Assembly (NCBI RefSeq): GCF_003073135.1
Contig: NZ_PGDQ01000006.1
Coordinates: 310,001-374,000 of the forward strand
Length of the DNA: 64,000 nucleotides
DNA from: Euzebya rosea
Lineage (GTDB): Bacteria > Actinomycetota > Nitriliruptoria > Euzebyales > Euzebyaceae
Reading direction: 5' to 3'
Both the position numbers and the translations under genes were made by a program. Within the stretch, counting starts at the first letter, position 1, and every line of letters starts with the position of its first letter. Shown one piece after another: positions 25,808 through 35,800 of this stretch. The notes below the pieces were generated by a model, which saw nothing but the letters and a program-made list of their open reading frames with translations, was not told where the DNA came from and did not search any database.

Positions 25808-27030
25808 CCACCACTGCATTCACCGACATCGGCTGGCTGACCACCCACGACCCCGCCCACGACCTGCCCGTCGGCGTCGACGCCTCCACGTCGGGCGCGG
25901 GCCGGCACGGCGAGGAGGTCGGCCGCGGACTCGCCGACGCGTGGCTGGTCGTCGAGGGCGGGCGTGTCGCGGCCGTCGGGACCGGGGCGGCTCCGTCGGC
26001 GGACCAGCGGGTGTCGGTGGGTGGCCGGTCGGTCCTGCCGGGCTTCGTGGACAGCCACACCCACATGGTCTTCGCCGGGGACCGGTCGGCGGAGTTCACC
26101 GCACGCATGGCCGGTCAGCCCTACGCGGCAGGCGGCATCGCCACGACGATCGGGGCGACGAGGTCGGCGACGGACGAGGCGCTGCGGGCGGCCCTGTCGT
26201 CGCGGGTGGCCGAGGCCCGGGCGGCTGGTATCACCACGTTGGAGGTCAAGTCGGGCTACGCGGCGACGCCGGAGGGCGAGGCCCGCCTGCTGCGGCTGGC
26301 CCGCGAGGTCACGCCGCACACCACGTACCTGGGCGCCCATGTCGTGCCTCCGGAGCACGCCGACGACCCGGCGGGCTACGTGTCGCTGGTGACCGGAGAG
26401 ATGCTGGAGGCGTGCGCGCCGCTGGCCGGGTCGGTGGACGTGTTCTGCGAGGAGGGGGCCTTCGACGCCGACCAGTCGCGGGAGGTGCTGCTCGCCGGGA
26501 TGGCGGCGGGGCTTGCCGGCCGGGTGCACGCCAACCAGCTGGGGGAGGGGCCGGGGGTGCGGCTGGCCGTCGAGCTCGGCTGCGCGTCGGCCGACCACTG
26601 CACGTACCTGTCGGGTGAGGATGTCGAGGCGTTGGCGGGCTCCTCGACGGTGGCGACGTTGCTGCCGGCGACGGACTTCTCCACCCGGCAGTCCTATCCG
26701 GACGGACGCCGCCTGGTCGACGCCGGAGCCACCGTCGCGCTGGCCACCAACTGCAACCCGGGCTCGAGCTACACCACGTCGATGTCGTTCGTCATCGCGC
26801 TGGCCGTGCGGGACTGCCGCCTGACCCTGCCCGAGGCGGTCTGGTCCGCCACGGCCGGCGGCGCCCGGTCGTTGCGGGTGGACGACGTCGGCCACCTGCG
26901 GGTTGGGGCGAGGGCGGACATGGTCGTCCTGGACGCCCCGTCCCCCGACCACCTGGCCTACCGCCCCGGCGTCCCCCTCGTCGCCGCGACGGTCCTGGCC
27001 GGCGACATCGTGGCCGGCTCCCTCGGCTGA
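25804..27030 (+). CDS. hutI: Imidazolonepropionase
   Basis: Third enzyme of histidine breakdown: opens the imidazolone ring to give N-formimidoylglutamate. The 408-residue amidohydrolase has the metal motif [13 protein letters not shown] (His85, His87), the substrate region [30 protein letters not shown] and the C-terminal [17 protein letters not shown] at 25804 overlaps the hutF stop. The last codons and stop are part of an 18-bp tandem duplication. It is the last gene of the hut operon seen here. Confidence 0.95.
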
Positions 27031-27049
27031 CCCGGCTCCCTCGGCTGAC
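27014..27049. repeat. 18-bp tandem duplication over the hutI stop codon
   Basis: CCGGCTCCCTCGGCTGAC occurs twice, perfectly, head to tail. The first unit encodes the last residues (GSLG) and TGA stop of hutI; the second repeats the same codons and an in-frame TGA behind the gene. The in-frame period makes the second stop a backup. Confidence 0.85.
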
Positions 27050-27226
27050 CGGCCCGCCAGTCGGCGAGATCGGGGCCTGCGTCGTCCATGCGCGATGACC
27101 GGCACGATCCGGGCCGTCGGGTCGGCTCGGCCGTCCCGGTGGGTGGCGGCGCGATCGGGGCCTGACCCACGTATGGGTGGGTAGCGGCACGATCCTGGAA
27201 GAGGGGGAGGGGGTTGGACACAGGAA

Positions 27227-32141: not shown

Positions 32142-32732
32142 GTGAACGGCGGACCGGCCCGGATGGTGGGCACACTCCTCGCCGCTGCGGTCCTGGCCAC
32201 GGCGTGCGGTGGCGGCAGCGATCCCGCCGACACGTCAGCGGCTGACACTGCAGCTGACACGGCAGCCGAGTCGGGCGCTGGCACGGCGAGCGACAGCCCG
32301 TTCGTCCTCACCGACCAGACCAACGAGCTGTACGAGGGCTTCATCGACTGCGAGCCGCTGCCCGACGGGATCGACGAGACCCCACCCGCTGACATGGTGC
32401 TGCCCGACGGCATGGTCATCACCGAGCTGTCGGAGGTCGGTCCGCTGGTCAGCGCCACCGGCTTCATCGACGCCACCCCGATCGACCTCCGCGACGCGTT
32501 CGTGCAACGTGACGACGTCGAGGTCGTGCACCTCGAGGACGAGGGGTTCGAGGCCGAGATCCTGATCGACGGCGGCAGCTCGCGCACCTACATCAAGGCG
32601 TCGATCCGATGCCGGACGGGCAGCGTGGTGCAGGTCCTGCTCGGCCCCGACGACGAGGCCCAGGCCCTGCCGGTCCCCGGCCAGGCCGCCGGCGGCACGG
32701 CCCCCGACGCGCCGGTCGCTCCCGCCGACTGA
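32142..32732 (+). CDS. Putative lipoprotein of unknown function
   Basis: A 196-residue exported protein with a short signal peptide ending in the lipobox LATACGGG, a Ser/Thr/Asp/Ala-rich spacer, and a compact acidic domain with two Cys (FIDCEPLP and SIRCRTGS) that may form a disulphide. I recognise no domain. The GTG start opens MNGGPARMVG; ATG at 32163 is a shorter alternative. It is on the same strand as the zinc-ribbon gene with 24 bases between. Confidence 0.72.
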   Translation: MNGGPARMVGTLLAAAVLATACGGGSDPADTSAADTAADTAAESGAGTASDSPFVLTDQTNELYEGFIDCEPLPDGIDETPPADMVLPDGMVITELSEVGPLVSATGFIDATPIDLRDAFVQRDDVEVVHLEDEGFEAEILIDGGSSRTYIKASIRCRTGSVVQVLLGPDDEAQALPVPGQAAGGTAPDAPVAPAD

Positions 32733-32784
32733 TCCCGGCGAGCGTCGCCCGTCGAGCACCCTCGCCCCTTCGTATCCTCCACCG

Positions 32785-33733
32785 ATGCGCATCGCAGCCG
32801 CCCAGGCCCGCCCCGCGTGGGGAGACTCCGCCCGCACGACCACCATCGTCACCGACTGGATCCAGCGGGCGGCCACCACCGACGTCGACCTGGTGGCGTT
32901 CGGCGAGACGTTCCTGTCCGGCTACCCGTTCTGGGTCAGCCCCGACCGACGGTGGCCGCTTCGACGACCCCGACCAGGCGGCCGCCTACGCCTACTACCT
33001 GGACGCGGCCGTCGAGCTCGACGGGCCCGAGGTCGACGCCATCGCAGAGTGCGTGGCCGACACGGGCGTGTTCACCTACCTGGGCATCACCGAACGTGGC
33101 GGCGGGTCCGGGCGCGGCACCGTCTGGTGCACCCTGCTTGCCATCTCCCCGCATGCCGGTGTCGTCAGCGCCCACCGCAAGCTGCGTCCCACGTTCGAGG
33201 AACGGCTGGTCTGGGGCGCCGGCGACGGCCACGGCCTGCGGGTCCACGACACGGGCCACGGCATCCGGGTGGGCGGGCTGAACTGCTGGGAGAACTGGAT
33301 GCCGCAGGCCCGCCATGCGCTGTACGCCTCGGGGGAGGACCTGCACGTCTCGGTGTGGCCCGGCGGCGACCACAACACCCACGACATCCCGCGGTTCATC
33401 GCCAAGGAGGGGAGGGTCGTGTCACTGGCCGCGTCGGCGGTGCTCGACCTCGACGACGTCCCCGAGGACTTCCCGCTGCTCGACCGGCTGGAGCCCGACG
33501 ACGTCGCCTTCAACGGGGGCAGCGCCATCGCTGGTCCCGACGGTCGCTGGCTGGCCGAGCCGCTCGTCGGCCGCGAGGGTTTCGTCGTGGCCGACATCGA
33601 CCCCGCGACCATCCGTGCGGCGCGACACACCTTCGACGCCACCGGCCACTACAGCCGGCCCGACGTGTTCTCCGTCACCGTCGACCGTCGCCGGCAGACG
33701 GCAGCAACGTTCCTCGACGACCCTCGCCGCTGA
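32785..33733 (+). pseudogene. Nitrilase-family amidohydrolase, frameshifted
   Basis: The sequence encodes a carbon-nitrogen hydrolase in two frames. Frame 1 from ATG 32785 gives MRIAAAQARPAWGD through GYPFWVSP; the homologous sequence resumes one base later as TDGGRFDDPDQAAAYAYYLD and runs to the stop at 33733. A single extra base near 32941-32947 (CCCGACC) explains it. The corrected protein is about 315 residues with the complete triad: Glu41 (FGETFLSG), Lys132 (HRKLRPT) and Cys167 (GLNCWENW). This is a recent disruption, a sequencing error, or a +1 recoding site. The stop codon lies in the first unit of a 17-bp tandem array. Confidence 0.85.
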
Positions 33734-34127
33734 CGCGCCCTCGCCGCTGACGCGCCCTCGCCGCTGACGCGCCCTCGCCGCTGACGCGCCCTCGCCGCTG
33801 ACGCGCCCTCGCCGCTGACGCGCCCTCGCCGCTGACGCGCCCTCGCCGCTGACGCGCCCTCGCCGCTGACGCGCCCTCGCCGCTGACGCGCCCTCGCCGC
33901 TGACGCGCCCTCGCCGCTGACGCGCCCTCGCCGCTGACGCGCCCTCGCCGCTGACGCGCCCTCGCCGCTGACGCGCCCTCGCCGCTGACGCGCCCTCGCC
34001 GCTGACGCGCCCTCGTCGCTGACGCGCCCTCGTCGCTGACGCGCCCTCGTCGCTGACGCGCCCTCGTCGCTGACGCGCCCTCGCCGCTGACGCGCCCTCG
34101 CCGCTGACGCGCCCTCGCCGCTGAGGC
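33721..34127. repeat. 17-bp tandem repeat array, about 23 units
   Basis: CTGACGCGCCCTCGCCG is repeated head to tail with a strict 17-base step from 33730 to 34104 (23 occurrences of CTGACG), preceded by a partial unit inside the nitrilase end and followed by a decayed unit (CTGAGG at 34121). Four consecutive units near 34011-34080 carry CGTCG instead of CGCCG; the others are identical by eye. The period is not a multiple of three, so it is not a peptide repeat. There are no spacers, so it is not CRISPR. It is a minisatellite-like locus, probably variable in copy number. Confidence 0.95.
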
Positions 34128-34171
34128 ACGCCCGCCGTTGAGACCGAGGGGCGGAGACCCGAGAACGGCGA

Positions 34172-34199
34172 ACGGGCCGACCGTCGCCGGCCGGCCCGT
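34172..34199. terminator. Hairpin downstream of BNR-repeat gene
   Basis: An 8-bp perfect inverted repeat (ACGGGCCG and CGGCCCGT, 12-base loop) lies 27 bases beyond the stop of the minus-strand BNR-repeat gene and between it and the 17-bp array. Probable intrinsic terminator without a U tract. Confidence 0.6.
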
Positions 34200-34225
34200 G
34201 TGATCGCGGGGAGGAGAGCCCGCGC

Positions 34226-35800
34226 TCACTCCGCCGGGGTGAACCCCAGCTCGTCCAGGTGGGCCTGCAGCAGCGCCTCGTGGCGTGCCGCGCCCAGGAC
34301 GTCGCGAGCCTCGTGGCCGATGTGCTCCGACGCCGGCAGCATCGCGCCGAGCAGCGGGGACTGGCCGCCCTCGGCCGGCGTGAAGTGGTGGCAGGTCGTC
34401 GCGCACAGGTCGAAGTCGGCGACGGCGATCATGCCCTTGCCGCGGTCGGTGACGTTGTTCGACGCCGTGCCGTCGATGCAGGCCGCGCTGTCGCACCCAT
34501 CGGAGAACGCCGCGACCGGGGTGCCGTCCGGCGTCACGACGACGTCGATGAAGTCCACGAGGTACAGGCAGCGCGAGTTGCAGGAGGTGCCGCGCTGGAT
34601 CGGGTCGTCGCCGGTGGTGTTGACGATGTCGAACGTGGGGGTCTGACCGGGGATCGCCGTGTCGGTGACCGCGATGTAGGCGCCCCAGGAGACGTCCCTG
34701 GCGGCGACGTTGGTCTGGTAGCCATTCGGCAGGTCACGGGTGCCGGCGAAGGCGATGGCGACGCGACCGGCGTCACCGGCGACCAGCGCGGGCAGCTCGG
34801 CGTGGACGCCGGTGGAGGTGACGCGGACCGGCTCGCTGAACGTCTCGGCCCGGTCGGTGGAGGAGGCGTACCAGAGGTGGTTGGACGTGTCGATCCAGGT
34901 GACGTGCAGCACACCGTCGGCGTCCAGGTCGATCGCCGGGTCGGAGAACGGGATGTCCATGTCGGTGATCTCGCGCTCGGTCCAGGTCAGGCCCGAGTCG
35001 GAGGAGACGTAGATGCTCGCCTGGTTGCCACCGTTGGGGGAGGGCAAGTAGATCGTGCCGTCCGGGCCGGCGGCGAGGTGGCCGGTCTGCGTGCCGGCGC
35101 CGGTCAGCGACGGGTTGGGGTACGCCGGGTACCCCGCACCCCAGGTCAGGCCGCCGTCGAGGGACCGCGCGCACATCTCGGCGTAGACGGAGTTGACGCA
35201 CTGGATCAGCACGTTGGGGTAGTCGCCCAGCATCACGGTGCCGGGGGTGGGCGGTGCGGCCACCATCGTCTGGTGGTCCCAGGCGCCCGAGGGGCCACAG
35301 CCGACCGGCGGGGTCGTCCAGGTCTCGCCGCCGTCGTCGGAGAAGCTCAGGATCGAGCAGAGCAGGATCGGGCTCATGTGGAAGCTGAAGATCCGGCCGG
35401 TCGAGGGATCGACGTAGGCGTACGGGTCGTTGGTCTCCGGCGGGTTGGAGTACCCGGCGATCGTCGGCTGCACGTCGGTCCAGCTGGACGTGAACGCCGC
35501 GTCCAGCGACTCGGCCTTCGCCACACCGGCGCGCCACCCGACGGCCACACCACGACCGGGGGTCGTCGCCATGTACAGGCCACCCTCCGGCGTCACGCCC
35601 ATCGTCGGTTCGAAGTTGTTGTGACCGATCTGGGTCCAGCGGCCATCGACGTCGCAGACGCTCGACGCACCGGCCGCCGGGTCGTAGGTCTCGCAGGTCG
35701 GGTCCGCCGGGTCGGCACTGACCGACTGGGCGGCGACCAGCAGCGACAGCAGCAGGCCGAGGACGAGCAGGGCGGACACGGACGCGCGAGTGGTGTTCAT
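34226..35800 (-). CDS. Secreted BNR-repeat (sialidase-like beta-propeller) protein
   Basis: A 524-residue exported protein. The N-terminal signal peptide (ALLVLGLLLSLLVAAQSVSA) is followed by a beta-propeller with several Asp-box motifs: SFSDDGGETWTT, RSLDGGLTWG, VSSDSGLTWTE and a weaker SSTDRAETF. Asp boxes occur in sialidases, but the catalytic Tyr/Glu pair and Arg triad of sialidases cannot be identified, so activity is uncertain. Several Cys pairs suggest disulphides outside the cell. The ATG begins the signal peptide. It is divergent from a membrane-protein gene. Confidence 0.85.
   Translation of the reverse strand: MNTTRASVSALLVLGLLLSLLVAAQSVSADPADPTCETYDPAAGASSVCDVDGRWTQIGHNNFEPTMGVTPEGGLYMATTPGRGVAVGWRAGVAKAESLDAAFTSSWTDVQPTIAGYSNPPETNDPYAYVDPSTGRIFSFHMSPILLCSILSFSDDGGETWTTPPVGCGPSGAWDHQTMVAAPPTPGTVMLGDYPNVLIQCVNSVYAEMCARSLDGGLTWGAGYPAYPNPSLTGAGTQTGHLAAGPDGTIYLPSPNGGNQASIYVSSDSGLTWTEREITDMDIPFSDPAIDLDADGVLHVTWIDTSNHLWYASSTDRAETFSEPVRVTSTGVHAELPALVAGDAGRVAIAFAGTRDLPNGYQTNVAARDVSWGAYIAVTDTAIPGQTPTFDIVNTTGDDPIQRGTSCNSRCLYLVDFIDVVVTPDGTPVAAFSDGCDSAACIDGTASNNVTDRGKGMIAVADFDLCATTCHHFTPAEGGQSPLLGAMLPASEHIGHEARDVLGAARHEALLQAHLDELGFTPAE

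Follow-up and report, generated by a model that had tools for sequence, protein, structure and literature searches.

The window analysed here is a 64,000-nucleotide stretch of a contig of Euzebya rosea. Around a 17-bp tandem array it contains the following features:

32785–33733, plus strand: nitrilase-superfamily gene (CN_hydrolase), with its stop in unit 1 of the array and a frame broken near 32944
33721–34128, plus strand: 17-bp tandem array, unit CCCTCGCCGCTGACGCG, 23 units and a diverged 24th (15/17), from TRF, pattern search and unit listing
34010–34077, plus strand: four adjacent variant units, CCCTCGTCGCTGACGCG, from pattern search and unit listing
34129–34145, plus strand: possible eroded 25th unit, from unit listing
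34172–34199, no strand assigned: GC-rich hairpin between the array and the convergent gene, a possible terminator without a T-run
34226–35800, minus strand: convergent BNR-repeat gene (sialidase-like fold; PF13088), whose stop bounds the spacer on the right; the start is that of a simple gene caller

A pattern search of the genome found 23 head-to-tail units at a strict 17-bp step, 19 of them exact and four, adjacent to one another, carrying a single C>T mismatch (CGTCG). TRF called the array at 33721–34124 with a period of 17, 23.8 copies, 99% matches and a score of 780, as against 77 for the top score and no more than 3.2 copies in 30 first-order-Markov simulations of the window. Both results bear out an earlier note on this DNA, which had reported 23 occurrences at this step, the nitrilase stop in the first unit and the four CGTCG variants, with coordinates that were right to within about a base. 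Listing the units over 33721–34111 showed that units 1–17 are identical, units 18–21 share the C>T exchange and units 22–23 are canonical; the TGA stop of the nitrilase gene (33731–33733) lies inside unit 1. Unit 24 (34112–34128) has two mismatches, and the bases directly after it match the unit at 11 of 17 positions in register, with the TGA kept. These bases are only probably an eroded 25th unit, because a match of at least 11/17 was also found at 0.67% of the 63,532 other positions of the window. Near-identical tandem units in head-to-tail order, of a length within ~10–100 bp, are what characterizes a minisatellite, and the array is a long example of this known kind and a candidate VNTR. 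The units abut without spacers, which rules out a CRISPR array.

The product of the nitrilase gene matches PF00795, reaches the cut-off of no NCBIfam nitrilase model and has Egibacteraceae, Euzebyaceae and other actinobacteria among its nearest named records. Compared with the intact 315-residue gene of G003, the nearest relative compared and a member of the same genus, the gene contains one extra base near 32944 (window 32940–32950) that breaks the frame; judged from the sequence, this could be either a real pseudogene or an assembly error. The stop of the BNR-repeat gene occupies 34226–34228, and the array thus lies between two 3' ends. It is separated from this stop by a unique tail of ~80–100 bp (to 34225) that holds GC-rich hairpins, and in a DNA search of four genomes for the origin of the tail, all matches were short, GC-rich and hairpin-like, the best non-self one having an E of 5.1e-4. 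Neither T-run terminators nor sigma-70-like promoters were found in 32700–35000.

G003 has the same gene order, with the two convergent stops 7 bp apart versus 492 bp here, and its nitrilase has an identical C-terminus (DDPRR-stop) that is followed by no array, so that ~23 units in one species face none in the other. Among the genomes compared (41 for the nitrilase, including its own, and 61 for the BNR protein), G003 was the only other one with both genes close together; the remaining two from the genus, G001 and G002, have no close nitrilase and no BNR gene. As far as these sequences go, the array is lineage-specific. All 23 matches to the unit with zero or one mismatch fall in the array, and the remaining hits in the genome have two mismatches and are scattered. 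The search for the same 17-mer elsewhere in the genome, which the earlier note had proposed, therefore gave nothing with fewer than two mismatches outside the array, ruling out a dispersed repeat of the MIRU type. No tandem copies of the unit occurred in 40 relatives, 12 of which have matches with up to three mismatches, none adjacent to another. Likewise, an exact search with almost two units of the repeat found no match in two public collections, of genomes and of viral contigs, from which records near the window's genome may be missing. Arrays at other nitrilase 3' ends were found at one of 86 loci (80 plus six, some being one place fetched twice, e.g. L011 and L199), and there only as a 2.1-copy 12-mer. 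This sole case belongs to a Colwellia relative of the nitrilase, in which the 12-bp repeat runs across the gene's own stop (L233 3779–3803).

Tandem arrays were surveyed with TRF in 2.44 Mb of the 5.51-Mb genome, against home-made gene calls from a simple codon-based caller. Merging of overlaps left 509 arrays, of which 333 satisfied the filter thresholds for copy number (2 or more), match (80%) and period (8 or more), and 98 were outside genes, that is, had at least 20% of their length outside called genes. Expected values were obtained from 500 random placements with the same lengths and the same filter. Thirty-three of the 98 outside-gene arrays contained a called stop versus 19.3 expected (no placement reached 33), and five contained a called start versus 22.7 expected (no placement was as low). 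With codon-sized periods excluded, stops were present in 24 of 58 arrays (expected 11.8) and starts in four (expected 13.7); among the 27 arrays with at least three copies, 11 contained stops (expected 5.9; 7 of 500 placements reach it) and two contained starts (expected 7.1; 6 of 500). The direction was the same in 400 kb of G003, with stops in 7 of 19 arrays (expected 3.6; 28 of 500) and starts in none of the 19 (expected 4.2; 7 of 500). The stop was located in the gene-nearest unit for 30 of 35 stops, a figure that is weaker than it looks because any frame that runs into an array with stops is bound to end soon. Periods divisible by 3 accounted for 40 of the 98 arrays outside genes versus 215 of 235 inside genes. 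The 98 outside-gene periods spread over ~14–21 bp with no peak at 17, and a special meaning of 17 bp was rejected. None of the others among the 98 comes near the 17-bp array in length, the next one having 6.5 copies. A second case, a 4.8-copy array of the 19-bp unit GTACTGACAGCGGTCGTCC (C6 239012–239103; L100 19012–19103), begins at the stop of a gene, and the matching gene end in G003 has no such array. The stop-bearing repeats at C6 206190 and 429849 were seen in both species, and therefore not every array is recent. Within the window, an 18-bp, 2.1-copy repeat, CCGGCTCCCTCGGCTGAC, holds the stop of a called gene (27014–27050); G003 has only one copy-like stretch there.

We consider it likely that the array is a neutral, lineage-specific minisatellite born at the 3' end of the nitrilase gene by slippage or unequal exchange. 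A 17-bp stretch comprising the last nitrilase codons, the TGA and 4 bp of spacer would have been duplicated, and the duplicated unit would then have expanded via replication slippage or unequal exchange. Such growth would have been tolerated, not selected, because the first stop ends the protein at any copy number behind it, and no promoter or ribosome-binding site would have been disturbed, since the neighbouring gene is convergent. Because G003 has the same DDPRR-stop and a 7-bp gap, the first unit corresponds to the old gene end, and the units after it are either extra here or lost in G003. This origin is supported by the synteny with a spacer of 7 versus 492 bp, by the block of four shared variants, which shows in-place copying of units, and by the possible edge decay in units 24–25. 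Further support comes from the lack of arrays at 85 of the 86 other nitrilase ends, from the surplus of stops and shortage of starts in the survey and from the second stop-anchored array on C6. The earlier note had likewise proposed growth from the gene's 3' end, expansion by unit duplication and a period free of protein selection. The first agrees with the shared last residues and stop in the array-free G003, the second with the variant block and the third with the survey periods; its suggestion of a structural DNA element found no support in folding. Several points count against this account. The unique tail is also missing in G003 and is not explained by simple unit duplication, and the sequence preceding unit 1 differs from the end of the unit, which leaves the first duplication without a traceable junction. 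The home-made gene calls and the arrays shared by both species weigh in the same direction. A gain here rather than a loss in G003, the mechanism and the neutrality are what we infer, a gain being favoured by the uniformity of the repeats. The finding of the locus in only one other species leaves room for an older array that was lost in G003 by deletion between the two stops, and one such deletion would also explain the absence of the tail there. We regard this as unlikely, however, as the 17 identical units indicate recent growth and a deletion ending 7 bp past a stop, with neither gene touched, would be fortuitous.

The position between convergent genes, the near-perfect identity of the units and the adjoining GC-rich hairpins are what would be expected of a functional 3' element (a terminator, an RNA stabiliser or a cluster of protein-binding sites) that insulates the two genes and is kept by selection. 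Such a role appears very unlikely: the element is missing in G003, where the genes are 7 bp apart, the unit is not found elsewhere in the genome and its identity is explained by recent copying. Moreover, neither strand of the array (z +3.20 for plus, z −0.79 for minus) nor the tail (z −0.88) folds better than shuffled sequences, and no Rfam family matched in the window, on which grounds a structured RNA or DNA element was rejected. With ordinary folds, no Rfam family, no promoter-like or T-run terminator-like site and no conservation, nothing in the sequence points to a function.

An artefact of assembly, affecting either the copy number or the whole array, is suggested by the draft state of the genome (40 contigs), by the possible indel error in the nitrilase gene and by a failure of the assembly at another 17-bp array, GCCCCTCGGAGGTCCTG, which forms both the end of contig C1 (L058 10809–10868) and the start of contig C2 (L069 1–60). 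C1 and C2 are probably neighbours joined by an array too long to assemble, because the matching stretches in G003 have the same orientation and lie ~6 kb apart. The count of 23 units may accordingly be in error; an artefact of either sort is nevertheless highly improbable, given that the array is interior to a 430-kb contig, that a variant block in fixed order is hard to produce falsely and that the shorter stop-anchored array on C6 has the same design. There is virtually no chance that a repetitive protein with a 17-residue period is encoded on the minus strand. ORFs 33422–34129 and 33675–34496 (minus strand) do span the array, but all three frames are automatically open when the repeated 17-mer has no stops on that strand. 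Moreover, the first of these ORFs has no Pfam match, the frames overlap other genes and were not chosen by the codon-based caller, and the array is absent in G003.

Beyond the likely neutral origin of this one array, the survey allows the tentative suggestion, which we think somewhat less likely to hold than to fail, that minisatellites in the genus arise preferentially at the 3' ends of genes and that arrays repeatedly seeded on a stop codon may form a recognisable, spacer-lengthening class. Stop-anchored seeding would be favoured because the protein stays the same whenever the duplicated stretch includes the stop. No report of such a class was found in a limited search of the open-licence literature.

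Plasmid iterons are direct repeats of 17–22 bp, and the array resembles them in unit length and direct orientation; unlike them, it lies inside a 430-kb contig and is seeded on a gene end, and no replication gene was present among the nearest proteins scanned. The ends of the MIRUs of Mycobacterium tuberculosis overlap stop and start codons. In contrast to these elements, which are described as 40–100 bp units scattered in 41 places (PMC2734929), the 17-mer occurs at a single place, and the comparison covered one genome per species. With bacterial minisatellite or VNTR loci such as the exact tandem repeats and MIRU-VNTR of M. tuberculosis, the array shares head-to-tail, near-identical intergenic units of non-codon size and unit duplication (PMC2734929). 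Bacterial tandem repeats upstream of a gene can change its expression (PMC2734929; PMC12817950), and promoter tandem repeats of M. tuberculosis change in copy number, a number that short reads resolve poorly (PMC12817950). The present array shares the latter difficulty, but differs from these upstream repeats in lying downstream of two convergent genes, with no promoter-like site found.

Taken by itself, the array is a candidate marker for strains, and it clearly illustrates how an intergenic gap may lengthen from a handful of bases to almost 500. More generally, the excess of stops and the scarcity of starts in outside-gene arrays provide a countable test of selection filtering tandem duplications in compact genomes.
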